Below, one piece after another: positions 28,880 to 47,910 of a DNA stretch of 64,000 bases. Source of the stretch: Psychroflexus sediminis (GTDB lineage Bacteria; Bacteroidota; Bacteroidia; Flavobacteriales; Flavobacteriaceae). The notes under the pieces are model-generated. The model did not search any database, was not told the DNA's origin, and saw only the letters and a program-made list of their open reading frames with translations. A program made the translations under genes and the position numbers. The stretch covers positions 1-64,000 of the forward strand of contig NZ_FNCW01000002.1 of assembly GCF_900099815.1 (NCBI RefSeq), read 5' to 3'. Numbering within the stretch: position 1 is the stretch's first letter; the number at the start of each line of letters is the position of its first letter.

Positions 28880-30145
28880 ATGTTTAATACCTATCCCATA
28901 AAATCACCCGGCAGCTCCCTGAAGCTTGTTCTAATCGGACTGCTGTTCTGCCTTAGTTTTAACCTGAATGGCCAAAGCCTTGAGGATTTAAAAACCACTG
29001 CTGCAGAAAATAACCTGGAGTTAAAGACGCAGTATAAGCGCTTTGAAGCTCAGCTAGAAGGCATAAGTCTGGCCAAATCCTGGCAGGATCCCAACCTGAG
29101 TTTTGGCTATTTCATCAGTCCCATAGAAACTCGGGTGGGTCCTCAAATTGCAAGATTTTCCCTGACTCAAATGCTGCCCTGGTTTGGAACCTTTAAAGTG
29201 AAAGGCGATATAGCAGCTTACAAAGCCGAAGCCGAATTTGAAAAATTTCAGGATCAAAAACTGAAATTGTATCTCAAGGTCGCACAACAGTATTATGAGC
29301 TCTCGGCTTTAAGATATGTTGCTAAAATCGAAGAAGAACAGTTCGAAATTTTAAAAGACCTGAAATCTATTGTAGAATCTAACTTCGAAAATAACAAGGC
29401 GAATTTGGTGGATATTTTAAGAGTTGAGCTGGAGATGGATAAGCAGCTGAATGTCCTTCAGGTGTTAAAAGATCAAGATCAAGCTTTAGTGACTCAGCTT
29501 AATCAGATGATGAACAGGCCGCTGGAAGCACCGGTTTTAATCCCAAACCCAAAGCAGACTCTGGAACAAATCCAATTCATGGAGAGCGATACGCTTTCGA
29601 TAACGCACCCTCGTCTGGAACGCATTCGCAGTTTGCAGGACTCCAATGCAGCAGAAAGTGAGTTGGCCCAAAAACAGGCTTTGCCGCAGTTTGGTTTAGG
29701 CTTGGATTATGCGATTATTCAAAATCAAAACGTGATGAATGCAGACGCTGGTCAGGATGCGATAATGCCTATGCTATCGGTGAGTTTACCCATTTTTGGA
29801 AAGAAAAATAAATCCAGAAAAAAAGCGGTTTCCCTTCAGGGCGAGGCGATACAATTTCAGCTGGAAAATGAAAAAACGCTTTTAAGAACCGAAATTCAAG
29901 TGGCAAAGTACAAGCAGGATGAACTTTTTGATCGTCTTGATTTATATGAAAAACAACTCCTGAGGTTAAAAGATATTTTACAGCTTTCAGAAGTTGCTTT
30001 AGCCAATGCCTCCATGGAAATCGAAGAAGTTTTACGCTTGTATCAGGAGCGATTACTCTACCTGAAACAGCAGGCTCAGGCTTTGGCAAATCTTCAAAAA
30101 ACAAATGAAACCTTAGGTTACCTCACTTCAAATTCAGCATTATGA
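28880..30145 (+). CDS. TolC-family outer-membrane efflux protein (CusC-like)
   Basis: A 421-residue outer-membrane channel with a signal peptide (about 16-35, FNLNGQ cleavage) and two OEP repeats of long amphipathic helices. Features include SLAKSWQDPNLSFGYFISP near the start of the barrel region and LPIFGKKNKSRKKA at the second repeat. It provides the exit duct for the adjacent RND pump. It begins 18 bp after cusA and overlaps the adaptor gene by 4 bp (ATGA), so the three subunits are made from one message. Confidence 0.92.
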   Translation: MFNTYPIKSPGSSLKLVLIGLLFCLSFNLNGQSLEDLKTTAAENNLELKTQYKRFEAQLEGISLAKSWQDPNLSFGYFISPIETRVGPQIARFSLTQMLPWFGTFKVKGDIAAYKAEAEFEKFQDQKLKLYLKVAQQYYELSALRYVAKIEEEQFEILKDLKSIVESNFENNKANLVDILRVELEMDKQLNVLQVLKDQDQALVTQLNQMMNRPLEAPVLIPNPKQTLEQIQFMESDTLSITHPRLERIRSLQDSNAAESELAQKQALPQFGLGLDYAIIQNQNVMNADAGQDAIMPMLSVSLPIFGKKNKSRKKAVSLQGEAIQFQLENEKTLLRTEIQVAKYKQDELFDRLDLYEKQLLRLKDILQLSEVALANASMEIEEVLRLYQERLLYLKQQAQALANLQKTNETLGYLTSNSAL

Positions 30146-31905
30146 AAACGCAATACAAATATTATTTAGGCTTTATTGTCATATTTATCGTCGGCATTTT
30201 TTTAGGGATTACTTTGTTTTCACCTGAACCTAAAAAAGAGGATGCCCATAATCATTCTCAGGAGCAGGCAGGCGAAGCAGTCTGGACTTGTTCGATGCAT
30301 CCTCAGATCCGTCAGGACGAGCCGGGCGACTGTCCCATTTGTGGAATGGATTTAATTCCTGCAAGTAAAATGGAAGAAAGCATTGATCCGGATGCTATCA
30401 AAATGAGTAAAACTGCTCGAAAACTGGCTCAAGTAGCAACCACCAGACTTGGAACTCAAAACTATGAATCCAACCTGAATTTATCGGGTCAGTTACAAGT
30501 CAATGCTGATAACACCTTTTCCATATCCACGAATTTCAAAGCCAGAATTGAAAGGCTTTTTGTAAACGAAGAAGGAGAACAGGTAAGCAAAGGAGAAGTA
30601 GTGGCAGAAGTTTATGCGCCTGAAATTCAGGTTTTAAAAGAAGAACTGGAACTGGCCAGACGCCAGGGAAACGAGCTTTTGCTGAATAGCATCCTCCAAA
30701 AAATTCAAAATTACGAATTGTCTGTCGATGATGTTGAGTCACTGAAAAACGGAAGATTGAATCTGCGCTCTCCGAAAACAGGGATAATTACAGATTTGAA
30801 AGTTACCCAGGGGGATAATTTGAAAGCCGGCCAAAGCTTAATGAGCATTGCAGATTTGTCCAGTCTTTGGGCAATCCTAGATGTTTATGAAAACGATCTC
30901 AACAAAATAAATGTAGGCGACAAATCAAAATTAGAGACACCAAACTATAAAAAAGTTTCAGGAGAAGTCACTTTTATTACACCTGTTTTGGATGACGAGA
31001 CTCGGTCTGCAAAGGCACGAGTCGTCATTAATAATCGAAATCTGGACTTAAAGCCGGGTGTTTTTATCACGGCAGAAGTGATAAAAACAGCACCTAAGTC
31101 AGAGGGCAGTGAAACTTTGATGGCCCCAAAATCTGCTGTGCTTTGGACGGGGAAGCGCTCGGTGGTTTATCAGCAGCTGGAGAATGAAAATGGGGTTTAT
31201 TTTAAGATGAAGACCGTTGAGATCGGTGAAACCTCATCAGATTTTGTCGAAATCCTTTCGGGTTTGGAGCCAGGCGACGAAGTGGTTACCTATGGCGCTT
31301 TCAGCATAGATTCTGAAGCCCAACTGGCGGGAAAACCGAGTATGATGAATCCTGAAGGAGGCGCCTCGATGACAGGTCATCAGCACGGAGATATGAAAGA
31401 GAGTGAAGAAACCTCAAGTGTGAAGCAGAGCACTCCGTCAGGTGAAACTATAAACAGTAGTGAAGAAGCTAAAGAAGAACTAAAGCCGGTTTTAAAGGAT
31501 TATTTAGCTTTTAAAAATGCCCTGGCTACAGATGATTTTAAAAATGCTGAATCTGCAGGGATCCAACTTAAAAAAAGTATAGCAGAGGTGGATATGTCTG
31601 TTTTTACTGATGAAGCTCATGATAGCTGGATGCAGCACAGCCGTGAATTAAAAAAGGCGCTTGAGCATATACAGCAACAAAATGATATTGAAAAAATTAG
31701 AAATACTTTTCAAGACGTATCTGAAGCTATGATTCCCATTGTAAAACTTATCAAGCCCATAGCTGAAGAGCTGTATGTTCAATTCTGTCCTATGGCAAAT
31801 TCAAATAACGGAGCCTACTGGCTAAGCGCAAAAGAAGAAATTATGAATCCATACTATGGTGAGTCCATGTTGAAGTGTGGTGAAGTAACCTCTGTAATTA
31901 AATAA
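30142..31905 (+). CDS. cusB: RND periplasmic adaptor with heavy-metal-binding and DUF3347 domains (CusB-like)
   Basis: A 587-residue membrane-fusion protein joining pump and channel. An N-terminal anchor (about 10-26) is followed by a heavy-metal-binding domain: WTC50SMHP...GDC64PIC67GM69DLIP. Then come lipoyl/hairpin/barrel segments of the CusB type (about 95-400), with AKARVVINNRNLDLKPGVF near the barrel. A Met/His linker (MTGHQHGDM) leads to a C-terminal DUF3347 domain (about 440-585) with FCPMA and NPYYGESMLKCG. The same domain appears alone in the next gene. These added domains suggest copper capture and hand-over at the periplasmic entry of the pump. Confidence 0.93.
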   Translation: MKTQYKYYLGFIVIFIVGIFLGITLFSPEPKKEDAHNHSQEQAGEAVWTCSMHPQIRQDEPGDCPICGMDLIPASKMEESIDPDAIKMSKTARKLAQVATTRLGTQNYESNLNLSGQLQVNADNTFSISTNFKARIERLFVNEEGEQVSKGEVVAEVYAPEIQVLKEELELARRQGNELLLNSILQKIQNYELSVDDVESLKNGRLNLRSPKTGIITDLKVTQGDNLKAGQSLMSIADLSSLWAILDVYENDLNKINVGDKSKLETPNYKKVSGEVTFITPVLDDETRSAKARVVINNRNLDLKPGVFITAEVIKTAPKSEGSETLMAPKSAVLWTGKRSVVYQQLENENGVYFKMKTVEIGETSSDFVEILSGLEPGDEVVTYGAFSIDSEAQLAGKPSMMNPEGGASMTGHQHGDMKESEETSSVKQSTPSGETINSSEEAKEELKPVLKDYLAFKNALATDDFKNAESAGIQLKKSIAEVDMSVFTDEAHDSWMQHSRELKKALEHIQQQNDIEKIRNTFQDVSEAMIPIVKLIKPIAEELYVQFCPMANSNNGAYWLSAKEEIMNPYYGESMLKCGEVTSVIK

Positions 31906-31933
31906 TGAACCTTAAATTTTAAAAATTAAAACA

Positions 31934-32443
31934 ATGAAAAGTAAAAAAACAACTTTAGTCCTCACCCTAATCTTTATCGGTTTTGGAGCCTTTGCACAAC
32001 ATAAACATGCTCATGATGGGGAGCAAAAAGAAATGAGTCAAAACATGGACCTTGAGTTTAAAGATCAGCAGTTAGGTGAAGCTTTTGAGCATTACATTCA
32101 TTTAAAAGAAGCCTTGGTAGCTTCAAAAACTGAAGTAGCCAAAAAAGCGGCAGGTAAGTTAGAAGCATCACTTGAGAATGTAAACGGCGGTGAAACAGCA
32201 AAAACAGCAGTGACCAAATTTAGTTCATCCACTGGTTTGGAAGAACAGCGAGAAGCCTTTAAGGGATTAAGTCTTGAAATGCTTTCTTTAGTAAAAGCCG
32301 GAGAGCTTTCAAAAGGGGAGGTTTATTTGGAGTATTGTCCTATGGCAAAAGCTTCATGGCTATCCACCAGCCAGGAAATTCGCAATCCTTATTATGGCGA
32401 TAAAATGCTGAAATGTGGAACGGTAAAAGAAACCATCAAATAA
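31934..32443 (+). CDS. DUF3347-domain exported protein
   Basis: A 169-residue periplasmic protein with a signal peptide (cleavage near FGAFAQ, residue 22) and a His-rich start (HKHAHDGE). The remainder is a single DUF3347 domain with the family ending EYCPMAKASWLS, NPYYGDKMLKCGTV. It is clearly homologous to the C-terminus of the preceding adaptor, which shares the CPMA and NPYYG-x-x-MLKCG motifs. Conserved Cys, Met and His residues make copper binding plausible. It lies 28 bp after the adaptor gene and is probably co-transcribed. A soluble copper chaperone or adaptor-swapping partner is inferred, not shown. Confidence 0.85.
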   Translation: MKSKKTTLVLTLIFIGFGAFAQHKHAHDGEQKEMSQNMDLEFKDQQLGEAFEHYIHLKEALVASKTEVAKKAAGKLEASLENVNGGETAKTAVTKFSSSTGLEEQREAFKGLSLEMLSLVKAGELSKGEVYLEYCPMAKASWLSTSQEIRNPYYGDKMLKCGTVKETIK

Positions 32444-32456
32444 CTAAACATTAGTT

Positions 32457-32511
32457 AATACCTTAATAAATTTAAATTTTTATCAATACCTTTTAACTTA
32501 ATACCTTTTAA
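32457..32511 (+). repeat. Three AATACCTT(TT)AA direct repeats upstream of the MlpB-like gene
   Basis: AATACCTTTTAA occurs at 32485-32496 and again exactly at 32500-32511, a 15-bp spacing. A shorter version, AATACCTTAA, is at 32457-32466. They fill the 71-bp gap before the gene at 32515. Regular spacing in a promoter-sized gap suggests a binding site, but low complexity makes chance possible. Confidence 0.4.
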
Positions 32512-32514
32512 AAC

Positions 32515-32931
32515 ATGACACTGAAAACTATATTAACAGCATGTACACTCCTGCTTTTTCTTGTGAGTTGTAACTCCACTTCAGAGAAAGAGAACAAAAC
32601 CACCACATCCAGGCTAACGGAACACACAGACCCGCTTAAAAGTTTAGCAATTGGGGATAAAGTCCCAAACGATAAGGTTTGTATGGTCAATGACGCCTAT
32701 ATGGGTGTTGAGCAAATCGCGGTGCCGGTAAGTGGCAAAACCTACTACGGCTGTTGCGACATGTGCGTCGATAAATTGAACTCAATAGATGAAGCGAGAA
32801 TCGCTATTGATCCTTACAGCGGGAATCCAATAGATAAATCTGAGGCCTTTATTGTGTTGTCCAATTCACAAGGCTCTGTGACCTATTTCGAATCAGAATC
32901 AAATTATAAAGCTTTTACCAAGCGTCTTTAG
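32515..32931 (+). CDS. MlpB-like lipoprotein with Cys-rich metal-binding motif
   Basis: A 138-residue lipoprotein (lipobox LFLVSC, Cys19). The body holds CMVNDAYMG and YYGCCDMCVDKLN. This CC-x-x-C arrangement resembles TRASH/YHS-type metal sites seen in copper and mercury proteins and in flavobacterial proteins annotated MlpB (name recalled, not searched). It sits inside the copper island after the DUF3347 gene. A role in periplasmic copper binding or sensing is inferred from Cys/Met content and context. Confidence 0.7.
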   Translation: MTLKTILTACTLLLFLVSCNSTSEKENKTTTSRLTEHTDPLKSLAIGDKVPNDKVCMVNDAYMGVEQIAVPVSGKTYYGCCDMCVDKLNSIDEARIAIDPYSGNPIDKSEAFIVLSNSQGSVTYFESESNYKAFTKRL

Positions 32932-33106
32932 TATAAAAAAATACGGGAAGAAATAATCCAAGTGTTCAGGTTAACAACTAGAAGTTACAAGTGTTTTTTC
33001 AGAAATAAGCATTATGACAGAGTTGATCTTTAAACTAGCATTTGTATAAAAGTAATTAGAAAACGGAAGTGATTTATTAATAGAACGGTAACAGAAATAA
33101 TGTACC

Positions 33107-33763
33107 ATGCTTAAAACCTTTGTTTTTATATTATCCATCATAATAAGCCATGTAACTTACTGTCAAGACATGCTCATAGAGCAAATTGCTGACAAAAAAA
33201 TTGTACGTAAAGTTTTTGATGAAGAAAAAGAATTGAAATCAAAGCAGTTTTTTGATGTAGGGGAACTAAAAAGCAGCGGAGATAAACTGTCAGTAAATCT
33301 GCAAGTAAAAATTTTTGATGAAGACGGAAAACTAGAAGAAAAATATTTTACTCATTACACCTGTAAGCCAGAGAAATCTGACGTACTTCTTAATGTGTTT
33401 CCATTTGCTCAAAGGGGTGATGCTAAATATGTTATAGAAGCTTCATCTTATGGTTTTAAAAACCTCTATCAATTTAAAGCAGAGGAAAAGAAACTGAAGG
33501 ACCTTAGCTTGAAAATGTCTGTTGAATCAGGAATGCTTGGCTTTTTTGGCTCTAAAAATAAAATTAAACTAAGCCATCGAAGGGTAAACAAGACTGCTAG
33601 TGGTTTTGATCTTCAATCTCATTTAACCATTAAAGTTTATATGATGGGATTAAATATTAAAACTGAAAGCTATCAGGTTACTGAAAAACTAAATGACAAT
33701 AAAATTTTATTAAGCCAAGAGTTTATGAGTGAAGATGGTAGTTATTTTTTAATGAATTATTAA
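33107..33763 (+). CDS. Exported protein of unknown function
   Basis: A 218-residue protein with a signal peptide (hydrophobic 4-15, VTYCQ cleavage near 20). It is rich in Lys and alternating beta-strand patterns, with no metal-rich tracts and only one Cys in the mature part. I do not recognise the family for certain; the layout (ten or so beta strands ending in a hydrophobic YFLMNY) vaguely recalls DUF3108/TapB-like secreted beta-sandwich proteins. It lies in the copper island behind a 175-bp gap, so it may have its own promoter and may be unrelated to copper. Confidence 0.6.
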   Translation: MLKTFVFILSIIISHVTYCQDMLIEQIADKKIVRKVFDEEKELKSKQFFDVGELKSSGDKLSVNLQVKIFDEDGKLEEKYFTHYTCKPEKSDVLLNVFPFAQRGDAKYVIEASSYGFKNLYQFKAEEKKLKDLSLKMSVESGMLGFFGSKNKIKLSHRRVNKTASGFDLQSHLTIKVYMMGLNIKTESYQVTEKLNDNKILLSQEFMSEDGSYFLMNY

Positions 33764-33817
33764 ATAAAGAACTGCAATTCTTACTTAAAAAACTTAAAGG
33801 ACCAAAACACAAACTGT

Positions 33818-34036
33818 ATGAAAAATGTGATAAAAATTTTAATCATGCTTGTAGTTACTTTTTTTGCAATTTCCTGTACGGATAAAAAAAAGGAAAATGA
33901 TAAAGAGCATCAAGAGCAAAAAGACCTCATAGAAGAGGATGTTTTTATGCATCACAATCATCAGGAAGGAAGAACTCATGACGAAACAAAGAGTGTCAGT
34001 ACGTCATCCGATACGATTAAAGATATAAAAGAATAA
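33818..34036 (+). CDS. Small His-rich lipoprotein
   Basis: A 72-residue protein with a lipoprotein signal (VTFFAISC, Cys20) followed by a short charged chain containing MHHNHQEGRTHDE. The stretch CTDKKKEND directly after the lipidated Cys matches the CVDKKKEDT of the lipoprotein at 41497, suggesting common descent. It should be a lipid-tethered flexible His/Glu-rich peptide able to bind copper or other metals in the periplasm. It lies between the unknown exported protein and the multicopper oxidase gene. No known family name. Confidence 0.6.
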   Translation: MKNVIKILIMLVVTFFAISCTDKKKENDKEHQEQKDLIEEDVFMHHNHQEGRTHDETKSVSTSSDTIKDIKE

Positions 34037-34116
34037 AAATCATTTAATACTTATGAAGTAGTATAAACCACTGAGAATTGCCCAAAAAAATTAACCTCTT
34101 TCAAAACGTTTTAACA

Positions 34117-35781
34117 ATGAAAAAACTAGAACCACCTAAGGCATTTAACCGAAGAGCATTTCTTGAAACCGCAGGCTATGGCGCGGCAACGCTTATGCTT
34201 TGGCCATTCATTTCTTCCTGTGATGGCCAGTTCTCAAAAGCAGCATCACCTGTGATGGATCCAGATTTTATCCCTGATATAGATTTGGAATTAAGTGCTG
34301 TTGAGCGGGATATACCTATCCTGTCCGGCCCCAAAACAAAAGTCTGGGTATTTGAAGGAGACCTGATAACAGGGGATAAGGAGGCTTTACAGGCCTCGAA
34401 GGGCAGCTATCTCGGACCGACGATCAAGGTGCGGAAAGGTCAAAAAATACGTATTCGTTTTCAGAATAATATCCCTGAAGAAACTATTGTTCACTGGCAT
34501 GGGATGCATGTTCCGGCCGAGGATGATGGCCACCCTCAGGATGTCATCCATAGTGGGGAAACCTATATTTATGAGTATGAAGTCATGAATCGTGCGGGGA
34601 CCTATTGGTATCACCCGCACCCACATGGTCGCACAGGACCGCAGGTTTATAATGGCCTTGCCGGGCTTTTACTGGTGACCGATGAGGAAGAACAGCAACT
34701 CAACTTACCCAAAGGCGAGTTTGACAGGCCTGTCGTGATTCAGGATCGCTCTTTTGATGAAGATAATCAGTTGGTTTATATTCAAAGCAGAATGGATAGC
34801 ATGCGCGGCTTTTTAGGCGACAAGATTTTGATAAATGGGAATGCCGAAAAAGTTCTGAATCTGAAATCAGGTTGTGCTTACCGACTCAGATTACCGAATG
34901 GCTCCAATTCAAGAATTTACAAGTTGGCCTGGGAGGATGGAAGTCCAATCACTGTCATAGGGATTGATGGAAGTTTATTAAGTGCCCCCAAAGAATTGCC
35001 CTACCTTATGCTTGGTCCTGCAAAAAGAGCAGATGTTTGGCTGGATTTATCAGACAAGCCTGAAGGCATTCGATTGACTATGAAAAATGAGTCCTTTCCT
35101 TTAGAAGTCATGTCCGGGGGTATGATGATGGAGGGTGGAGAGACTTCCTTACCTCAAGGAAGCGAATATGAAGTGTTTACTGTAAAGACAACTAGTTCTG
35201 GCAGTAATGAGTATAGCTTACCGCAGCAATTAGTCAAATCGAATTATATCGATCCGTCTACGGCAGAAAATCTAAATAATCCAAGGCAGTTTAGCTTCGC
35301 CATGGATCACATGGAATGGACGATCAATGGGCGCACCTGGGAAACTACAGGCGTAGTCGATGAAGAAACCGTAAAGCTAGGGAGTACAGAAGTTTGGGAG
35401 TTGATCAATAGTTCTGCTATGATGGGTAATGATAGTGGCGGCGGCATGATGGGTGACGGCGGCATGATGGGCGGAGATGAGGGTATGATGAGTGGTGGCG
35501 ACATGATGGGTAACATGATGCAGATGCCACATCCCGTTCATATTCATCAGGTACAGTTCAACATTTTGGAAAGAGATGTGAGCGATGTAGATTCCCAATT
35601 ATGGGAGGCTGTAAAAGAGGGTTTTATAAATGATGGCTGGCAGGACACCGTCTTGTTATTGCCGGGGATGAAGGCCAGAGTAATCATGGAGTTTAAGGAT
35701 TTCAAAGGCTTGTTTGTTTATCACTGCCACAATCTGGAACACGAAGATATGGGCATGATGAGAAACTTTAAAATCACGTAA
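34117..35781 (+). CDS. Tat-exported multicopper oxidase with Met-rich insertion
   Basis: A 554-residue periplasmic cuprous oxidase of the CueO/CopA type that detoxifies Cu(I) by oxidation. The start at 34117 gives a twin-arginine signal (NRRAFLETAG, Arg12-Arg13); the frame is open from 34078. All four copper-ligand motifs are present: HWHGMH (about 127), WYHPHPHG (about 164), HPVHIH (about 472) and HCHNLEHEDMGMM (about 535). Residues about 434-470 form an insertion with 13 Met among Gly/Asp, directly before HPVHIH. It is comparable in spirit to the Met-rich segment of CueO that feeds Cu(I) to the enzyme. Confidence 0.93.
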   Translation: MKKLEPPKAFNRRAFLETAGYGAATLMLWPFISSCDGQFSKAASPVMDPDFIPDIDLELSAVERDIPILSGPKTKVWVFEGDLITGDKEALQASKGSYLGPTIKVRKGQKIRIRFQNNIPEETIVHWHGMHVPAEDDGHPQDVIHSGETYIYEYEVMNRAGTYWYHPHPHGRTGPQVYNGLAGLLLVTDEEEQQLNLPKGEFDRPVVIQDRSFDEDNQLVYIQSRMDSMRGFLGDKILINGNAEKVLNLKSGCAYRLRLPNGSNSRIYKLAWEDGSPITVIGIDGSLLSAPKELPYLMLGPAKRADVWLDLSDKPEGIRLTMKNESFPLEVMSGGMMMEGGETSLPQGSEYEVFTVKTTSSGSNEYSLPQQLVKSNYIDPSTAENLNNPRQFSFAMDHMEWTINGRTWETTGVVDEETVKLGSTEVWELINSSAMMGNDSGGGMMGDGGMMGGDEGMMSGGDMMGNMMQMPHPVHIHQVQFNILERDVSDVDSQLWEAVKEGFINDGWQDTVLLLPGMKARVIMEFKDFKGLFVYHCHNLEHEDMGMMRNFKIT

Positions 35782-35867
35782 AAAAGGAGTAAGAATCAGC
35801 TCTATAAGGAAAGCTTTTACTCAATGTTTGGAACACTAAAATAATTTTTAACTAAATACATTAAACA

Positions 35868-35894
35868 ATGAAAACAATGAAAACAATGAAAACA
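35868..35894 (+). repeat. Triplicated 9-bp repeat containing the start codon
   Basis: The unit ATGAAAACA occurs three times in tandem (35868-35894), giving MKTMKTMKT. Each ATG is preceded by an A-rich context similar to a translation start. Slippage would change the number of start codons without breaking the frame. Confidence 0.8.
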
Positions 35895-36386
35895 ATTTCG
35901 AGAACACTAATGATAATTGGAATAATGGGGGCGTTTGTAAGCTGTAAATCCAGCTTTGATGCTGCTGAAACCATGGAACTTCAAAACAACAGACAGGCTG
36001 TTTACCAGGAAATCATTTCAAATCCTGAACACATGACAGAATTTACTCAAATGGCTGAGCAAGATCAAGACGCTCGGAAAATCATGATGCAAAGCCATAT
36101 GGAAATGATGGAATCTGGAAAACTAATGGAGATGATGAAAAATAATCCGGAGATGATAGAGCAGATGAAAGAAAACATGCAGAACATGATGCAGAACAAC
36201 CCGGAGATGATGGAAAACATGCGGTCCAAAATGACTGAAAAAATGATGAAAAGCGCTGAGGGCAGAAAAAAACTGATGGAGGCGATGCAGGAAAATCCAG
36301 AAATGAAAAAAGCAATGATGCAGGAAATGATGCAAAACATGCACAATGGAGGCATGATGGATGAAAAGGAAAATGACAAGCAGTAA
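35868..36386 (+). CDS. Methionine-rich lipoprotein
   Basis: A 172-residue lipoprotein (FVSC lipobox) in which 37 residues, about 21%, are methionine. The mature part is a long amphipathic helix built of NPEM-x-x-x-M units (KNNPEMIEQM, QNNPEMMENM, QENPEMKKAM) with many MM pairs. Methionine thioethers bind Cu(I) and Ag(I), so a periplasmic Cu(I) sponge or chaperone is likely by composition. The start codon lies in a threefold 9-bp repeat that supplies three successive in-frame ATGs (35868, 35877, 35886); any could be used. It follows the multicopper oxidase by 86 bp. No named family is recognised. Confidence 0.7.
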   Translation: MKTMKTMKTISRTLMIIGIMGAFVSCKSSFDAAETMELQNNRQAVYQEIISNPEHMTEFTQMAEQDQDARKIMMQSHMEMMESGKLMEMMKNNPEMIEQMKENMQNMMQNNPEMMENMRSKMTEKMMKSAEGRKKLMEAMQENPEMKKAMMQEMMQNMHNGGMMDEKENDKQ

Positions 36387-36420
36387 ACTTAATTTTTAAT
36401 AATACTAAAATTCAAAAATT

Positions 36421-36633
36421 ATGATGTACGGATGGATTATAGGCTTAATACTTATAGTTGTTTTATTTATGGCAGTAAGAGGGAGTGGTGTTTTTAAAAG
36501 AAAGCCTAACTCAACAGAGAATCCCAGCACGACTTCAACGCCATTAGAAACCCTCAAAAATCGCTATGCTAAGGGTGAAATTGATGATGAGGAATTCGAA
36601 AAACGAAAAGCCGAACTGGAAAAAGCGGGTTAA
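36421..36633 (+). CDS. SHOCT-domain small membrane protein
   Basis: A 70-residue protein with one N-terminal membrane helix (about 4-22) and a C-terminal SHOCT motif (LETLKNRYAKGEIDDEEFEKRKAEL, residues about 42-67). SHOCT domains are short oligomerisation-type helices often found at the ends of membrane proteins. It lies 34 bp after the Met-rich lipoprotein and 3 bp before the amino-acid-type permease, so it is co-transcribed. Similar small proteins are common in copper clusters of Bacteroidota; the role is unknown. Confidence 0.75.
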   Translation: MMYGWIIGLILIVVLFMAVRGSGVFKRKPNSTENPSTTSTPLETLKNRYAKGEIDDEEFEKRKAELEKAG

Positions 36634-36636
36634 TTC

Positions 36637-37953
36637 ATGGGCCAGTATAAAAAAGGAAGTTTAAGTTTATTGGGGTCTGTCGCTCTAGGGACGGGTGTCA
36701 TGATAGGAGCAGGAATATTTGCACTTCTTGGTCAGGTAGCAGAACTTTCGGGTACATGGTTTCCTTATATCTTTCTGCTGGGCGCAGTCATTTCTGGCTT
36801 TAGTGCATATTCTTATATCAAAGTTTCCAACGCGTATCCTTCTGCAGGAGGCATTGCTATGATTTTGCAAAAAGCCTATGGCAAAACGACCATTACGGCT
36901 TCTGCTTCTTTATTGATGGCCTTATCGATGGTCATCAATGAAAGTCTGGTTGCCAGAACTTTTGGATCCTATACGCTGCAACTTTTTACCGTTGAAAATA
37001 AAGCGCTTTGGATTCCTGTTTTGGGGGTGGGATTATTAATTTTTGCTTTTTTGATCAATATTTCCGGCAATCGACTGATTGGAAAATCTTCCCTGGTGAT
37101 GGCATTTGTCAAAATTGCAGGGATTTTGATTTTTGCAGTAGGGGCTTTGTGGGCAGTTGGATTTTCATTAGAGGGTCTGATACCTAAACCTTCTGAAAGC
37201 ACAGACTATTCAGCAGCCAGTTATATCGGAGCTTTGGCTCTTTCTATTTTGGCCTATAAAGGATTTACCACCATTACCAATAGCGGAGATGAAATCACCA
37301 AGCCTAAGAAAAATGTAGGTCGATCTATTATTATTTCATTATTGATATGCACGGTGGTTTATTTCCTGGTCGCTTATGCCGTAAATTCCAGTCTTTCGAT
37401 TTCTGAAATTGTCAAAGCCAAAGATTATTCTCTGGCTGAAGCTGCAAAGCCTGCTTTTGGGGATTATGGCTTGTATTTTACAGTGGGTATTGCCATTGTA
37501 GCAACCATTTCAGGAATAATTGCCAGTATTTTTGCCGTTTCCAGAATGACAGCTATGCTCACCGACATGAAATTGATTCCACACAGCCATTTTGGAATGC
37601 CTGGACGAATTCAAAAGCATATGCTGGTTTACACGGTAGTCATTGCCATTGTCCTGACCGTATTTTTCGACCTTTCCAGGATTGCATCTATGGGAGCTAT
37701 ATTTTATTTGGTTATGGACATGATCATTCACTGGGGAGTTTTCAAACACTTAAGAAAGGAGGTGAAGGCCAATGCTGTTATTTTGATAACCGCATTGGTT
37801 TTAGATCTTATAGTTCTGGTTGCTTTTTTATGGATAAAGTTGTCTTCCGATATTTTGGTTCTGATTGTTTCTGCAGGCATTATGCTCATCGTTTTTATAG
37901 GTGAAAAATGGTTTTTAAACAGAACTGACAAATCTGAATTCATTGAAAGTTGA
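36637..37953 (+). CDS. APC-superfamily permease
   Basis: A 438-residue inner-membrane transporter with about 12 helices. The first-helix signature GSVALGTGVMIGAGIFALLGQ and the segment GFTTITNSGDEITKPKKNVGRSI are typical of amino-acid/polyamine/organocation permeases. Substrate is not predictable. Its presence within a copper-resistance run is unusual: it could import an amino acid useful for metal buffering, such as a thiol or His source, or be a passenger. It starts 3 bp after the SHOCT gene. Confidence 0.87.
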   Translation: MGQYKKGSLSLLGSVALGTGVMIGAGIFALLGQVAELSGTWFPYIFLLGAVISGFSAYSYIKVSNAYPSAGGIAMILQKAYGKTTITASASLLMALSMVINESLVARTFGSYTLQLFTVENKALWIPVLGVGLLIFAFLINISGNRLIGKSSLVMAFVKIAGILIFAVGALWAVGFSLEGLIPKPSESTDYSAASYIGALALSILAYKGFTTITNSGDEITKPKKNVGRSIIISLLICTVVYFLVAYAVNSSLSISEIVKAKDYSLAEAAKPAFGDYGLYFTVGIAIVATISGIIASIFAVSRMTAMLTDMKLIPHSHFGMPGRIQKHMLVYTVVIAIVLTVFFDLSRIASMGAIFYLVMDMIIHWGVFKHLRKEVKANAVILITALVLDLIVLVAFLWIKLSSDILVLIVSAGIMLIVFIGEKWFLNRTDKSEFIES

Positions 37954-38040
37954 GGCATAAATCCTACCTAAAAAAAATGACAGATTTTTAAAATGAGTTT
38001 AGTATTTCTTAATTATTAATTCAAAAAAATTTAATTTAAT

Positions 38041-39318
38041 ATGAAAAATAAAGCAATAATTTTAGCAGGTCTGTTTGCGATTTTTCCAATGCTATCTTTT
38101 GCTCAAGGGGATTCTGAAGGTTTTTTTAGCTTGTGGGGAGAAAGCGCCAAAACCGCAGTAGGATTTTTCTGGAAGGCAGGCTGGGCTTTTGTATTGGGCT
38201 ATATAATAAGTGGTGCCATTCAGGCTTTTGTACCTAAAAAGAAGCTTACACGACACATGGGTGAGAGCGATGTGAAAAGCGTTTCATTATCTACTTTATT
38301 TGGAACCATCTCTTCGTCCTGTTCTTTTGCAGCATTGGCTGCAGCCAGATCGCTGTTTTTAAAAGGCGCACACTTTGTAAGTACAATAGCATTCATGTTT
38401 GCTTCCACCAACCTTGTCATCGAACTTGGGATATTAATATTCATTTTTCTAGGCTGGGAATTTGTACTGGCAGAAATAATTGGTGGATTATTACTTATAG
38501 TTATAAGTTCTATACTTATCAAACTTACCTACCCAAAGAAATGGATCAAAGCGGCACGTGAAAAAGTAGAGGAGGAATCTGATGAAGAAGAGGATTTCGA
38601 CTGGAAGAAACGAATAAAATCGAAGGAAGGCTGGTTTTTGGTTGGTAAAAACTTTGTCATGGAATGGAAAATGGCCTGGAAAGATATTTTGATTGGTTTT
38701 ACGGTAGCTGGCTTTGTGTCGGTCTTAGTGCCACAGTCGTTTTGGGAGGCTATTTTTCTTAATAATTTGCAAGGACAGATACCCGATTTCGTCATTCGGA
38801 TAGAGAATGCACTTGTAGCTCCTTTTGTGGCTGCCGCCACATTTATTGGATCTATGGGAAACATCCCTCTTGCCACAGTGCTTAACGAAAATGGAGTGAT
38901 GTTTGCCGGACTTATGGGCTTTATTTATTCGGATCTTATGGTACCACCTTTGGTCAATATCAATAGAAAATACTATGGTCCGCGTATAGCACTTTATATA
39001 GCCGGAGTGATGTATGTGAGTATTGTTATTACAGCCTTGATACTCAATTATAGCTTCGAATTTTTTGGAGTCTTGCCCGAAGGCAGTCGTAAGGTAGCTG
39101 AGGTTACCCAGTTTAAGATGGATTATACCTTCTATTTTAATATTCTATTTGCCGTTCTTGCCGCACTGATGCTTTATTTCAATTTTAAAACCAAGAACAT
39201 GAAAGAAGGCGGAGGTCATGATCACGATCATGGAAGTGGAGGTATTTCTTTCAAAAAAGTGGCTGTTTATCTCTTTAGTTCCATTGTCATCATTGGTTTG
39301 ATTTTATATCTGATATAG
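38041..39318 (+). CDS. Permease of the DUF318/ArsP family
   Basis: A 425-residue membrane protein with a possible N-terminal signal or first helix (LPMLSFAQ) and about eight helices. The family segments TRHMGESDVKSV, GTISSSCSFAALAAARSLFLKGA and FASTNLVIELG are visible, and a repeat of the fold follows near residues 250-310. The ArsP_1/DUF318 superfamily includes organoarsenical and proposed Cu/Zn effluxers. A long hydrophilic acidic loop (about 175-205) and a His/Asp tail (HDHDHGSGG, about 399) are seen. Placed just before the P1B ATPase gene, it is probably a metal permease. Confidence 0.8.
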   Translation: MKNKAIILAGLFAIFPMLSFAQGDSEGFFSLWGESAKTAVGFFWKAGWAFVLGYIISGAIQAFVPKKKLTRHMGESDVKSVSLSTLFGTISSSCSFAALAAARSLFLKGAHFVSTIAFMFASTNLVIELGILIFIFLGWEFVLAEIIGGLLLIVISSILIKLTYPKKWIKAAREKVEEESDEEEDFDWKKRIKSKEGWFLVGKNFVMEWKMAWKDILIGFTVAGFVSVLVPQSFWEAIFLNNLQGQIPDFVIRIENALVAPFVAAATFIGSMGNIPLATVLNENGVMFAGLMGFIYSDLMVPPLVNINRKYYGPRIALYIAGVMYVSIVITALILNYSFEFFGVLPEGSRKVAEVTQFKMDYTFYFNILFAVLAALMLYFNFKTKNMKEGGGHDHDHGSGGISFKKVAVYLFSSIVIIGLILYLI

Positions 39319-39387
39319 CGTTAAGGTCTAAAAGATACATAATGCCAAAGCGTACTTCTAAATATCCAAATTGGAAAATTAAAAATT

Positions 39388-41403
39388 ATGGGACAACATC
39401 AAAACAATCATTCAAAAGATGAGCATGAGCATTCAGGTGATGATCACTCTCATCACGACCACCATAAAATGATGATTGAAGATTTCAAAAAGCGATTTTG
39501 GATTTCATTAGTCATTATGTTGCCTATAGTAGTTTTGGCTCCGATGATACAAGATTTGGTTGGATATGAATTTCGATTCAAATGGGATAGATATCTTCAA
39601 TTTGGACTCTCTTCCTTTGTTTTCTTTTATGGAGGCTGGCCGTTTTTAAAAGGCCTGGTCGATGAAATTAAGAAGAAAACACCAGGTATGATGACCTTGA
39701 TTGCACTAGCTATTTCGGTGGCCTATTTTTATAGCTCTGCGGTTGTCTTTGGTTTGGAGGGTAAAATATTCTTTTGGGAGCTGGCCAGTTTAATAGTCAT
39801 CATGCTTCTGGGTCACTGGATAGAAATGAAATCGGTGATGGGAGCCTCCAATGCTTTAGAAGAACTGGCTAAAATGATGCCTTCCACCGCTCGTCGAATA
39901 AAAGAAGATGGGGAGCACGAAGAGGTTTCTATAGACGACTTAAAAAATGAAGATGTTATTCTGGTAAAACCCGGTGAAAAGATTCCAGCGGATGGCCAGG
40001 TGATTGAAGGAGAAAGTCATGTCAATGAATCGATGCTCACAGGGGAGTCCAAGCCCGTTGCCAAGCACGAAGAGGATGAAGTCATTGGCGGATCAATAAA
40101 TGATAATGGCTCTTTAAAAATAAAAGTGCAGCACACCGGTAAAGACTCTTATTTGTCAAAAGTGATTGGCATGGTGGAAGAAGCTCAAAAGACCAAATCC
40201 AAAACCCAAAACCTGGCAAATAAAGCAGCAGCTTGCTTGTTTTATGTGGCTTTAGGTGCAGGTATTATAACCTTGGTTGTTTGGCTGAGCCTTGGGAAAG
40301 AATTTGAATATGCTTTAGAGAGAACAGTTACCGTCATGATTATTTCATGTCCACACGCACTCGGTTTGGCTGTGCCCTTGGTTGTTGCGATTTCTACAGC
40401 TGTTTCTGCCAAAAACGGACTTCTGATAAGAAACAGAACTGCTTTTGAAAATTCAAGAAAAATCTCAGCTATTATTTTTGATAAAACAGGAACCTTAACC
40501 AAAGGAAAATTTGGGGTGACCCGCTACAAATCAATTTTAGAAAAACAATCAGATGATGACTTACTTCAAATAGCAGCTTCCCTCGAAAATAGTTCAGAAC
40601 ATCCAATTGCTTCAGGAATAGTTCGAAAAGCAAAATCTCAAAATCTGGATTTACAGGAAGCATCAAGCTTTCAGAATATCACAGGGAAAGGGATACAAGC
40701 AACTTTAAACGATCAGGAAATTAAAATTGTGAGTCCGGGAATGTTAAAAGAACAGGACATTGACATTCCATCAGAGGCTTTCAAATCTAAAGATGAAACC
40801 GTAGTTTTTGTGACGATAGATGCTAAGCTGGCTGGATTTATTGCTTTAGCAGATGAAATCAGACCTGAATCCTTATCAGCTATAAAAACCTTAAAAGACA
40901 GAGGCATTAAAGTAATTATGGCCACTGGAGACAATGAGCAAGTGGCTAAAGCGGTAAGTGAAGAGCTTTCCTTAGATGATTATTATGCTGAAGTTCTTCC
41001 TGAAGACAAGCAAAGCATTATCAAAGACTTACAGGAAAAAGGTGAGTTTGTTGCCATGACGGGTGACGGGGTGAATGATGCACCTGCTCTGGCTCAGGCA
41101 GATGTTGGTATTGCGGTTGGTTCTGGAACGGATGTTGCAGCAGAAACAGCAGATATTATTTTGGTCAACAGTAATCCTAAAGACATTGCAAGCCTAATTT
41201 TATTTGGCACAGCCACATATAAAAAAATGATGCAAAACCTTTGGTGGGCAGCAGGATATAATATAGTTGCAGTTCCTCTTGCAGCTGGGGTTTTGGCTGG
41301 AGCGGGAGTTATTTTAAGCCCGGCAGTAGGCGCTATGTTGATGAGTTTGAGTACCGTTATTGTAGCTGTGAATGCTCAACTCTTAAAAAAACAAATGAAA
41401 TAA
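39388..41403 (+). CDS. copB: P1B-type copper ATPase of the CPH subclass (CopB-like)
   Basis: A 671-residue metal-transporting ATPase that exports copper from the cytoplasm. The N-terminus is His-rich (HEHSGDDHSHHDHH), with no CxxC HMA domain. TGES is at about 218, the transmembrane metal site is S-C321-P-H323 rather than CPC, the phosphorylated Asp365 is in DKTGTLT, and GDGVNDAPAL follows. The last helices contain MSLSTVIVAVNA. CPH with MSxST is the mark of the P1B-3 (CopB) group, linked to Cu(II) and Ag(I) export. It would deliver metal to the periplasm for the oxidase and RND pump. Confidence 0.93.
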   Translation: MGQHQNNHSKDEHEHSGDDHSHHDHHKMMIEDFKKRFWISLVIMLPIVVLAPMIQDLVGYEFRFKWDRYLQFGLSSFVFFYGGWPFLKGLVDEIKKKTPGMMTLIALAISVAYFYSSAVVFGLEGKIFFWELASLIVIMLLGHWIEMKSVMGASNALEELAKMMPSTARRIKEDGEHEEVSIDDLKNEDVILVKPGEKIPADGQVIEGESHVNESMLTGESKPVAKHEEDEVIGGSINDNGSLKIKVQHTGKDSYLSKVIGMVEEAQKTKSKTQNLANKAAACLFYVALGAGIITLVVWLSLGKEFEYALERTVTVMIISCPHALGLAVPLVVAISTAVSAKNGLLIRNRTAFENSRKISAIIFDKTGTLTKGKFGVTRYKSILEKQSDDDLLQIAASLENSSEHPIASGIVRKAKSQNLDLQEASSFQNITGKGIQATLNDQEIKIVSPGMLKEQDIDIPSEAFKSKDETVVFVTIDAKLAGFIALADEIRPESLSAIKTLKDRGIKVIMATGDNEQVAKAVSEELSLDDYYAEVLPEDKQSIIKDLQEKGEFVAMTGDGVNDAPALAQADVGIAVGSGTDVAAETADIILVNSNPKDIASLILFGTATYKKMMQNLWWAAGYNIVAVPLAAGVLAGAGVILSPAVGAMLMSLSTVIVAVNAQLLKKQMK

Positions 41404-41496
41404 TCAAAACACCATGTTCATTATAAAAAACATGTTAATACTTCTATATCTGAGTAAAATTTTAGTAAACTGATGTCTAATTAAAATTCAATACAA

Positions 41497-41718
41497 ATGA
41501 AAAATTTAAAACTAATTTTATCAAGTACTCTCATTGCAGGATTAATGATGCTGTCAGTGTCTTGCGTGGATAAGAAAAAAGAAGACACTACTGATGCTGA
41601 AGTGCATCACGAACAGGAAATGCATGATGAAGAAATGCATGATGAAGAGATGATGGATGAAGAAATGGACCATGACGAAATCAATCATGACGAAATGAAC
41701 CATGATGCTGAAATGTAA
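41497..41718 (+). CDS. Small lipoprotein with Met/His/Asp/Glu repeats
   Basis: A 73-residue lipoprotein (MLSVSC, Cys23). The mature chain is almost only acidic residues, His and Met, in tandem short units: EMHDE-EMHDE-EMMDE-EMDHDE-INHDE-MNHDAEM. No hydrophobic core is possible, so it is a flexible metal-binding tail tethered to a membrane. The CVDKKKEDT start parallels the lipoprotein at 33818. It lies between the copper ATPase and the HMA-domain protein. A periplasmic copper buffer or chaperone is the likely role by composition; no family is known to me. Confidence 0.65.
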   Translation: MKNLKLILSSTLIAGLMMLSVSCVDKKKEDTTDAEVHHEQEMHDEEMHDEEMMDEEMDHDEINHDEMNHDAEM

Positions 41719-41754
41719 AACCAGAATCATTTCTAAACCTTTTTGAATTAAAAC

Positions 41755-42468
41755 ATGACACATACCTATAAAGTTTCCGGCATGACTTGCCAGCATTGCA
41801 GAGCCAGTGTGGAAGAAAGTCTTAAAGATTTAGACCAGGTGAAATCGGTGAGCGTTGATTTGGAAGCCGAAGAAGCTAAAATCGATATGGAAAAGCATGT
41901 GGATTTGGAGACGCTTCAAAAGGCACTTTCAGATAAATACACGATTTCAAAAAAATCTGATTTTGAAGACAAATCTGGTCAAAACATCCAGGACCAGTCC
42001 AAAGCAAAACAGCTGTTCCCCTTGTTTTTGATCTTTGGTTACATCGCTGCAGCTTCCATTTTGCTGAATTTCAGCGACTGGGAACTCAGCAGTTTTATGT
42101 TTGACTTTATGGGCCTGTTTTATATCGTCTTTAGTTTTTTCAAATTTCTGGATTATACCGGATTTCCAGAATCCTTTAGGATGTACGACCCTCTAGCCAA
42201 AGCCCTGCCTGCTTATGGGTGGGTGTATCCGTTTATAGAAACCGCCCTCGGACTCATGTTTCTGATGCGATTTGAAATCGATATAGCTTTGGTCGCTACG
42301 ATTGTTGTTCTAGGAATTACCACTATAGGTGTCACCCGTTCTCTGTTCTCCAAAAAAGTCATCAAGTGTGCCTGTTTGGGAACGGCGCTCAATCTTCCTA
42401 TGACCGAAGCGACCTTTATTGAAAACACCATCATGCTGGTCATGGCAGTCTGGATGTTGTTGTTTTAA
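41755..42468 (+). CDS. HMA domain fused to MauE/DoxX-like membrane domain
   Basis: A 237-residue fusion. Residues 1-68 are a heavy-metal-associated domain with the GMTC12QHC15 copper-binding motif. Residues about 90-237 form four membrane helices of the MauE/DoxX type, with CACLGTALNLP near the end resembling the conserved CxC segment of MauE proteins, which have been linked to periplasmic disulfide handling. The fusion suggests that cytosolic copper is delivered to, or sensed by, a membrane thiol protein. It is the last gene of the copper island, followed by a repeat element. Confidence 0.82.
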   Translation: MTHTYKVSGMTCQHCRASVEESLKDLDQVKSVSVDLEAEEAKIDMEKHVDLETLQKALSDKYTISKKSDFEDKSGQNIQDQSKAKQLFPLFLIFGYIAAASILLNFSDWELSSFMFDFMGLFYIVFSFFKFLDYTGFPESFRMYDPLAKALPAYGWVYPFIETALGLMFLMRFEIDIALVATIVVLGITTIGVTRSLFSKKVIKCACLGTALNLPMTEATFIENTIMLVMAVWMLLF

Positions 42469-46939: not shown

Positions 46940-47039
46940 AAGAAGTTTTAATTCAAGTTAAAAATTATCAGTTTAACAGGGTTTAAATGTATCCTTTTGA
47001 AGGCTTACAGGTCTACTTGGTGAACACTAAAATTATATA

Positions 47040-47156
47040 ATGATGAATGCCTGTAAATGTACTAATTGTGACTGCTCTAAATGTAATTGCAAAAATTGTT
47101 TAGAAAGTAACTGCCCTTGTAAGCAATGTGATTGTACTCAATGCGATTGTTGCTAA
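47040..47156 (+). CDS. Metallothionein-like cysteine-rich peptide (38 aa)
   Basis: A 38-codon gene with 14 Cys (37%), at residues 5, 7, 10, 12, 15, 17, 20, 25, 27, 30, 32, 35, 37 and 38. Two blocks of five-residue CxCxx repeats (CKCTN-CDCSK-CNCKN-C and CPCKQ-CDCTQ-CDCC) are joined by LESN. There are no aromatic residues, His or hydrophobic core, as in metallothioneins. Repeat units use different Cys codons (TGT/TGC), so the repeat is kept at protein level. An in-frame TAA at 47028-47030 fixes the start to ATG 47040 or 47043. It is followed 7 nt later by an intrinsic terminator, then a SigZ-like gene. Not the SmtA or MymT family by eye. Cytosolic Cu(I)/Zn binding is inferred. Confidence 0.75.
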   Translation: MMNACKCTNCDCSKCNCKNCLESNCPCKQCDCTQCDCC

Positions 47157-47163
47157 AGCTAAT

Positions 47164-47200
47164 AAAGGTGACTTGAAAAGCCACCTTTGCTTATTTTTTT
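47164..47200 (+). terminator. Intrinsic terminator between the cysteine-rich gene and the sigma gene
   Basis: Stem of 7 bp plus 3 bp around one A-C mismatch (47164-47174 with 47178-47188), a 3-nt loop, then TTATTTTTTT (47191-47200). The sigma factor ATG follows at 47205. It either ends the short transcript completely or acts as an attenuator allowing limited read-through. Confidence 0.8.
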
Positions 47201-47204
47201 CAAA

Positions 47205-47732
47205 ATGAACACTAAAAAAATATGGACTAATTATAATGATGAATTGTATTTTTTCATTCTTAAAAAAGTAAAAAACAAAAGCGCTGCTCATGACATTGTT
47301 CAAAATACGTTTTTGAAAATTCATAAAAACCTGCATTCTGTTAGGGACGAAAAAAAGATTAAGTCCTGGGTTTTTCAAATTGCCCGAAATGAGATTGCAA
47401 ATTATTTTAATGAAGAATCTGTGTATGTCGAGAAATTCGATACAGACTTGAATACATCACTGCAGAAATATCAGGAGGTCTGCTGTTTTGACAGATTCAT
47501 AAATGATTTGCCCGAGATTTACAGAGAAGTCATCGAACTTATATATATAACTGGTCTTAAACAAAAGAATGCTGCAGAACTAATGGGAATAAGCCTTGAA
47601 AACCTAAAGGCAAGACTTAGACGGGCAAAAGGTATTTTAAAAAAGAATTTCAACACGTGTTGTAAGTATGAATTTAATGAAGAAGGAGATTTAGTGGGGG
47701 AGTCCAATTGTACTGTATGTGAAAAGGACTGA
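47205..47732 (+). CDS. ECF sigma factor, SigZ-like
   Basis: A 175-residue RNA polymerase sigma-70 factor. Region 2 is seen around AHDIVQNTFLKIHKNL, with SWVFQIARNEI. Region 4 is LPEIYREVIELIYITGLKQKNAAELMGISLENLKARLRRAKGIL. The tail has the SigZ-type cysteine extension: Cys152-Cys153 followed by YEF and Cys169-x-x-Cys172, which could bind metal or react with oxidants. I start at ATG 47205; an in-frame TTG at 47187 lies inside the terminator stem. No anti-sigma gene is adjacent. The only partner is the metallothionein-like gene upstream, suggesting metal or thiol stress control. Confidence 0.88.
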   Translation: MNTKKIWTNYNDELYFFILKKVKNKSAAHDIVQNTFLKIHKNLHSVRDEKKIKSWVFQIARNEIANYFNEESVYVEKFDTDLNTSLQKYQEVCCFDRFINDLPEIYREVIELIYITGLKQKNAAELMGISLENLKARLRRAKGILKKNFNTCCKYEFNEEGDLVGESNCTVCEKD

Positions 47733-47862: not shown

Positions 47863-47881
47863 CACCTCATTATTAATAACG

Positions 47882-47896
47882 GGAGTCGTGAACTCC
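47882..47896 (+). promoter_or_regulatory. Possible leader hairpin of rpsP
   Basis: GGAGT-CGTGA-ACTCC forms a 5-bp stem in the predicted 5' leader, 14 nt before the S16 start codon. Ribosomal-protein leaders often carry autoregulatory structures, but this one is short and unproven. Confidence 0.3.
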
Positions 47897-47910
47897 AAAA
47901 TTTAATTTTT

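Follow-up and report, generated by a model that had tools for sequence, protein, structure and literature searches.

A putative metal(loid)-response unit of Psychroflexus sediminis and other Bacteroidota: a metallothionein-like peptide gene in tandem with a SigZ-like ECF sigma factor gene

The DNA considered here (the window) is the first 64,000 nt of contig NZ_FNCW01000002.1 of Psychroflexus sediminis. On its forward strand, the listed ORF at 47040–47156 encodes MMNACKCTNCDCSKCNCKNCLESNCPCKQCDCTQCDCC; translation gives 14 cysteines in 38 residues, as an initial annotation of the window had stated. Its claim that the start is bounded by an in-frame stop also holds: a TAA lies 9 nt upstream of the first ATG, and the open frame is 41 codons long. 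The actual protein is probably one residue shorter (37 aa, encoded at 47043–47156), since the alignment of homologues begins at the second methionine, which is invariant in nine of them. Its cysteines fall in two blocks of seven, as CxC and CxxC arrays in a short chain.

Upstream on the same strand, at 46989–47016, is a sequence identified as an ECF-type promoter by exact pattern match and conservation (GTATC at −35, a 17-nt spacer, and GTCTAC at −10). Downstream, a terminator- or attenuator-like hairpin (47164–47188) separates the peptide gene from a gene for a SigZ-like ECF sigma factor of 175 aa (47205–47732, forward strand), of which the initial annotation made no mention. Similar stretches, TGAACACTAAAA...TAATGATGAAT, are found just upstream of the peptide start (47019–47045) and at the start of the sigma gene (47205–47243), either by partial duplication or by chance. 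An Rfam search returned only an S16-Flavobacteria ribosomal-protein leader (RF03138, 50.1 bits) at 47872–47906, before the S16 gene.

The product of 47205–47732 is an ECF sigma factor, with matches to Pfam sigma-70 region 2 (41.5 bits) and region 4 (r4_2, 46 bits) and to ECF sigmas in the PDB by both sequence and fold. Its best family match is SigZ, at 145.2 bits (TIGR02959) and 152 bits (PRK09637), in each case below the curated cut-off (168.65 and 212, respectively). A Priestia megaterium plasmid gene annotated as SigZ is ~32% identical to it; the features listed within 4 kb of that gene, in an incomplete gene table, include no Cys-rich peptide or metal gene. The window sigma has a pair of cysteines in its linker (C93, C94) and four in its tail, arranged CC-x15-C-x2-C (C152, C153, C169, C172). 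An AlphaFold model (mean pLDDT 78.7) does not show these meeting, since its pTM is 0.43 and its linker is disordered.

The peptide and its relatives, called type A here, have the sequence features of metallothioneins, a functional class: they are short, rich in cysteine (14 of 37 residues in the window copy; 37% on average over 58 sequences), and poor in aromatic residues, which occur in just 2 of the 58. Histidine is found in one, in a C-terminal extension, and is absent from the window copy. The window peptide matches no Pfam family at E up to 10, a search in which HMMER filters may drop weak matches, nor do two type A relatives and four of the type B peptides described below. It has no NCBIfam or PDB match, and PDB and plasmid searches with the peptides as queries found nothing. 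The initial annotation had set it apart from the SmtA/BmtA family and proposed a new bacterial metallothionein type. The first point is borne out by the lack of any family-profile match and of histidine in 57 of the 58 sequences; the second stands insofar as the peptide is conserved, unclassified and metallothionein-like, though not in the copper link that went with it.

In a sample of 199 genomes of the family, 21 match the window peptide at E ≤ 1, nine of them, P. sediminis included, over the full length at E ≤ 4e-6 (58–81% identity apart from self); the others are weak. Two further genomes of the genus have no type A peptide, so that the distribution is patchy. Across the phylum, the type A profile matches 8 of 390 genomes, three of which are the only type A matches among 92 genomes of one family (f24, listed only as of the same phylum). 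A scan of named genomes gave 58 loci. One, from a Pirellulaceae MAG, was dropped before counting as a chance match (11 cysteines within a 312-residue frame); the 57 kept are from Bacteroidota, by record titles mostly Flavobacteriaceae but also Echinicola, Roseivirga, Portibacter, and Brumimicrobium. Cultured strains with the unit include Gillisia limnaea DSM 15749, Zeaxanthinibacter enoshimensis DSM 18435, and Maribacter thermophilus HT7-2.

All 58 sequences, the 57 homologues and the window copy, fit a single cysteine register, CxCxxCxCxxCxCxxC-x4-CxCxxCxCxxCxCC. Four of these cysteines were required by the scan motif, and their invariance thus partly reflects how the loci were chosen; the other ten lay outside the motif, though subject to a tblastn E-value filter. 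In 57 distinct coding sequences, each of the 14 cysteine positions is encoded by TGT in some and by TGC in others, and no cysteine is replaced; the pN/pS ratio, 0.25 over the whole frame, is 0.46 when only non-Cys codons are counted. Codon usage and conservation together confirm the type A ORF as a real gene, evidently under strong purifying selection. The initial annotation had read the TGT/TGC variation between repeat units as a sign of selection, and across species that sign is stronger. It had also looked to relatives with conserved Cys spacing, which exist, and had named a dN/dS near 1 as telling against the gene; the ratio found is well below 1. Its expectation of homologues at the same locus fared otherwise: genome position is not conserved, and what is conserved is a unit of peptide, sigma and promoter.

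In all nine type A genomes of the family sample, the sigma gene follows the peptide gene on the same strand, and it lies directly downstream in 54 of the 57 homologous loci (one recount). Of the exceptions, L061 retains only a sigma remnant, and L084 and L096 have no sigma; among the 54, the sigma of L098 is interrupted by an in-frame stop. The partners at L061 and L098 are evidently decaying. When neighbouring ORFs of at least 90 aa were clustered, the next commonest after the sigma was present in 7 of the 57 loci; no other recurs in more, and there is thus no linked anti-sigma gene in that size range. A search of the 199 genomes with the sigma alignment found the nine peptide carriers to be exactly the nine genomes scoring at least 269 bits (the next scored 163), so that the peptide and this sigma subfamily coincide in all 9 genomes, of 199, that have either (Fisher p 9e-16). 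Searches starting from the sigma agree: the peptide adjoins it in 30 of 30 loci of one set, and among 395 genomes of the phylum, each of the 11 top-scoring sigmas (at least 205 bits) is accompanied by a type A peptide or by the type B peptide described below. The pair is nonetheless not obligatory, since peptides occur without a sigma in 3 of the 57 type A loci and in 8 of 34 type B genomes.

The promoter block, GTATCYTTTT...GTCTAC, lies ~50 nt before the peptide start and has the spacing of an ECF promoter. In the form GTATC-N17-RTCT it is found 44–56 nt upstream of the peptide start in 54 of the 57 loci, the same 54 that carry a sigma. The other three have neither, though one of these, L061, is truncated by its contig end, with just 42 nt available upstream of the peptide. 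Promoter and sigma are thus present or absent together. Several orphan peptides carry TAnnTTTA/G in place of the ECF promoter, which we take to resemble the Bacteroidota housekeeping −7 element. The pattern GTATCYTTTTN12RTCTMC has a single exact match in the 2.97 Mb P. sediminis genome, at 46989 of the window; one site with a single mismatch is inside a coding ORF. Over the 199 family genomes, the strict 28-mer has 12 matches in 11 genomes, vs. 4 for a reversed control pattern, and is present in 8 of the 9 type A genomes vs. 3 of the 190 others. Three of the four exact matches outside the unit are inside coding ORFs; the fourth (genome G053) coincides in part with the start of a divergently oriented gene, ahead of an ORF for a lipoprotein-like product that has no obvious connection to metals. 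When the pattern was relaxed, the DNA flanking the 57 loci yielded no additional site.

An intrinsic terminator had been proposed at the end of the peptide gene. There is indeed a hairpin on the forward strand at 47164–47188, folding at −11.6 kcal/mol (z −1.9; 6 of 200 shuffles fold as well), but it is terminator-like rather than canonical, because its T-run begins ~5 nt past the stem and a pattern scan called a terminator on the reverse strand only. By a stem test, a hairpin begins 0–9 nt after the peptide stop in 42 of the 57 loci, and was not found in the remaining 15. What recurs, then, in many Bacteroidota, marine ones among them, is a tandem of conserved peptide and sigma genes with an ECF-type promoter in front and mostly a hairpin in between: the unit is conserved and its surroundings are not.

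For all 21 sigmas of the next tier in the searches (L112–L132), a Cys-rich ORF is the immediate upstream neighbour. This peptide, type B, is 33–34 aa long with 11 invariant cysteines (25 sequences); the four tested matched no NCBIfam model. It is found in 34 of the 199 family genomes, none of them a type A carrier. A sigma is present in 26 of the 34, a count that includes one decayed pair (G188) and one cut by a contig end (G047); the other eight have none within the 1.8–2.6 kb examined. The type B promoter, TGCATC-N-GTCTA/T, has the same −10 element as type A and a changed −35 (TGCATC). Its exact pattern has 27 matches in 26 of the 199 genomes (reversed control, 2). Of the type B genomes with a sigma, 21 of 26 have it at the peptide; of those without a sigma, 0 of 8 do. 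Of six extra matches, four are intragenic, one precedes a gene of the CDF cation-efflux family (a second exact promoter in its genome, G083:C14:17600-20000, starting 52 bp upstream of that gene), and one follows a peptide-less sigma (G125). In the last case (G125:C1:3316700-3319200), the arrangement may be an arsenic regulon: after the SigZ-like sigma gene come a TGCATC/GTCTT site and a 46-aa ORF, then a GCGTC/GTCTT site and a gene for arsenite methyltransferase. One type B peptide without a sigma (L202, G088:C40) has several cysteines replaced by tyrosine or phenylalanine, and looks as if it were decaying after sigma loss.

Among 47 type A sigmas parsed (54 loci have one), 46 have the linker CC, with CF in the other, and 46 the tail CC..C..C; the ten type B sigmas examined have a single linker cysteine. 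C94, C152, C153, C169, and C172 are invariant in 17 aligned sigmas of the two types. In a tree of 57 rows (the window sigma, 16 of the 47 parsed type A, two from f24, 17 type B, and 21 without peptide), support is 100/99 for type A, 99/91 for type B, and 96/95 for the two together against the rest, which places the type B sigmas as the sister clade of type A.

Cys-rich ORFs were also sought at 37 lower-scoring sigma loci (at most 182 bits) by a filter, with eight read individually. The filter found them at L219 and L222, and individual reading added one at L218 and, less certainly, one of CC type at L224; at the remaining loci the filter found no Cys-rich peptide, although, since it missed L218, more may exist. 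L218, L219, and L222 have promoter-like blocks, TGCGTCCTTT...GTC (GCGTC...GTC), that resemble the type A and B promoters; the peptides, encoded upstream of the sigma, have architectures other than those of types A and B. A 70-row tree, to which these four sigmas and nine others without a CxC peptide were added, gives 100/99 for A, 99/90 for B, and 96/83 for A+B, and groups L218, L219, and L222 together (91/85) outside A+B. From this placement, the pairing would either be older than A+B, with losses, or have been made more than once.

A large copper-type island occupies 28880–42468 of the window. By eye, it includes CusC/CusB-like efflux genes and a multicopper-oxidase-like protein; it also holds an ArsP_1 permease, a P-type ATPase, an HMA+MauE protein, and a 73-aa His/Met/acid-rich protein (41497–41718). 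The initial annotation had put the peptide gene 4.5 kb from this island, and the cluster does stop 4.6 kb short of it, at 42468; genes resembling dinB, an ABC transporter, and an exonuclease (names by eye) lie between the two. A copper tie as a general feature does not follow, and membership of a copper island was rejected as a general explanation, since the unit's neighbours differ almost everywhere in the 57 loci. Only 9 of these have any of ten tested types of metal(loid) gene in the flanks examined: acr3 is beside the unit in 3, multicopper oxidase or CusB matches in 2, and CopA in none (E ≤ 1e-8). By eye, three Mesonia loci have a CusA-like ORF ~5 kb away.

The more distant sigmas have a different set of neighbours. 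When the neighbours of 36 lower-scoring sigmas were checked for arsM, arsI/cadI, acr3, aquaporin-like, and merTP genes, half of the loci, 18, had one or more (12 of the 18 first examined and 6 of a further 18, one of these a weak MerTP match), and the other 18 had none. Curated models confirm 8 of the 18. The proportion is descriptive, the queries having been picked once the loci had been read, and four of the queries coming from loci that were then counted. One of the 18 is in P. sediminis itself (G000:C23:78326-78844), a second SigZ-like sigma without a peptide and with an arsI/cadI-like gene ~70 bp on. The four loci with other Cys-rich peptides (L218, L219, L222, and L224) are not among the 18. 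On a Hymenobacter plasmid (NZ_CP110138.1, 11872–20393), genes annotated as arsC and ACR3 lie on the opposite strand ~2 kb from a SigZ-like sigma of 31% identity, and at two loci (L217 and L220) a SigZ-like sigma is followed by a permease resembling, by eye, the ArsP_1 type of the window's copper island.

We propose that the window sigma is a metal(loid) sensor and the activator of its own unit, and that the two genes form a self-contained, movable, self-regulating detoxification module in which a sensor sigma drives a metallothionein and itself. From the sequence comparisons, the probability of this reading is put at roughly 0.7. Cu(I), As(III), Cd(II), Hg(II), or Zn(II) would bind the linker and tail cysteines of the sigma directly, with no anti-sigma; the activated sigma would steer RNA polymerase to GTATC-N17-GTCTAC; and the peptide would be the abundant first product. 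Partial termination at the hairpin, with some read-through into the sigma gene, would give positive feedback until the peptide, probably as two 7-Cys metal-thiolate clusters, had taken up the ions and so switched the sensor off. The two 7-Cys blocks would, on chemical analogy, favour Cu(I) as the ion, whereas As(III) or Cd(II) would be the candidates suggested by the arsenic genes beside related sigmas.

A copper-specific version of this scheme, in which copper is what the sigma responds to and the peptide, a Cu(I)-thionein of a bacterial kind, belongs to the same physiology as the nearby island, is possible but rather doubtful. Each half of the peptide has three CxC pairs and one more cysteine, and the order [CXC]..[CXC]..[CXC]..C is that of the Neurospora/Agaricus 7-Cys unit, which forms Cu5 clusters (PMC4755600). 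The rarity of histidine (1 of 58 sequences) and of aromatic residues (2 of 58) would suit such a role, as would the copper-type cluster 4.6 kb away, the CusA-like ORFs of the three Mesonia loci, and the precedent of CorE, a copper-dependent ECF sigma with a Cys-rich tail. The window neighbourhood is however a single case, and the module is not tied to copper genes elsewhere, as the counts of 2 of 57 and 0 of 57 indicate; arsenic genes are found next to related sigmas, and one type B promoter stands in front of a gene for a CDF exporter.

Two other readings would take the detoxifying role away from the peptide. If it acted chiefly on the sigma and not as a sink, whether by donating metal, by removing metal to shut the sigma off, or as a small anti-sigma, the constancy of the pairing in sigma-first searches (30 of 30 loci, and the 11 best matches) would be expected, as would the single occurrence of the exact type A pattern in the P. 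sediminis genome and the finding of only one clear further target, the CDF gene of G083. This seems improbable: sigma-less peptides persist, one of them decaying, and the very high cysteine content with a hydrophilic remainder would suit metal binding more than protein binding. Least likely of all is that the ORF is a Cys-codon-rich leader, its peptide functionless, at which ribosome stalling and the hairpin attenuate the sigma gene. The layout is suggestive, a short Cys-rich ORF with a hairpin 0–9 nt past its stop (42 loci) and then a regulatory gene, but a leader would have no need of the Cys spacing that is identical in 58 of 58 sequences, and the peptides persist without sigma gene or ECF promoter. 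Attenuation was also looked for directly: in the 42 loci the end of the ORF was not found to pair with the hairpin arm as an antiterminator would (mean 5.2 nt, vs. 5.6 in codon-shuffled sequences).

Among known systems, the closest in logic to the proposed module are CorE and CorE2 of Myxococcus xanthus (ECF44, now partly ECF238), likewise ECF sigmas that lack a linked anti-sigma and have cysteine in the linker and a Cys-rich C-terminal extension. These are reported to be metal-activated (PMC8999054; PMC3107203), and by analogy the window unit may work as CorE does. The CorE linker has a CXC, where the type A sigmas have CC and those of type B a lone C. Lack of CXC is reported for the majority of the new ECF238 group (PMC8999054). 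The tail, with four cysteines as CC..C..C, is arranged otherwise than the CorE set, and the promoter differs from that of CorE. The CorE paper gives 21 members from four phyla, none of them Bacteroidota, and the word "metallothionein" does not occur in its main text (PMC3107203).

On the peptide side, the SmtA/BmtA-type metallothioneins, which we take to be Pfam PF02069, are also small Cys-rich bacterial proteins with a presumed metal-thiolate cluster; type A peptides differ in having no Pfam match, no histidine in 57 of 58 sequences, and regular CxC repeats. SmtA-type proteins are described as carrying histidine and a zinc-finger fold (PMC10612145). The mycobacterial copper metallothionein MymT is similarly tiny, formerly unannotated, and Cys-rich, and is set apart from the window peptide by profiles (no NCBIfam or Pfam match) and not by direct alignment; its regulator, RicR, is not a sigma factor. 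A capacity of up to six Cu(I) has been predicted for MymT (PMC7558416). The 7-Cys unit of three CxC and one further cysteine is shared with fungal Cu-thioneins (Neurospora crassa MT, Cryptococcus CnMT, and Tremella TmMT), the longer of which repeat it in tandem (PMC4755600). The type A spacers are X2, vs. X5 and X3 in the fungal proteins, the type A peptide is bacterial, and no homology was detectable in the PDB search; the resemblance is likely convergent.

In the open-access literature, no paper was found joining SigZ with metallothionein, SigZ with Flavobacteria and copper, or metallothionein with Flavobacteriaceae and a sigma factor, and those matching SigZ and arsenic concern other topics, by their titles and abstract beginnings. 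Among the open-access matches listed, titles and abstract beginnings describe no such unit; prior mention elsewhere is possible. There is a slightly better than even chance that the units belong to an undescribed class of minimal metal-response units in Bacteroidota, in which ECF sigmas sensing a soft metal or metalloid through their own cysteines would drive dedicated metallothioneins. The two well-sampled peptide architectures (14 and 11 Cys), sigma clades, and −35 elements would have diverged together within it, the pairing being old or repeated, and SigZ-like relatives would run arsenic or mercury detoxification genes.

To our knowledge, few metallothioneins have been described from bacteria, the majority of them in cyanobacteria, pseudomonads, and mycobacteria. 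The peptides described here would add at least two widespread, uncatalogued metallothionein-like types from another phylum, each with a probable sensor, and are examples of genes of fewer than 40 codons that carry conserved functions overlooked by family libraries. If the proposed module is real, it would join sensing and sequestering in ~0.7 kb under one promoter and offer a compact metal biosensor part. A group of SigZ-like sigma factors, so far orphans, would then have a function, and the joint divergence of a sigma and its promoter would have a clear example.
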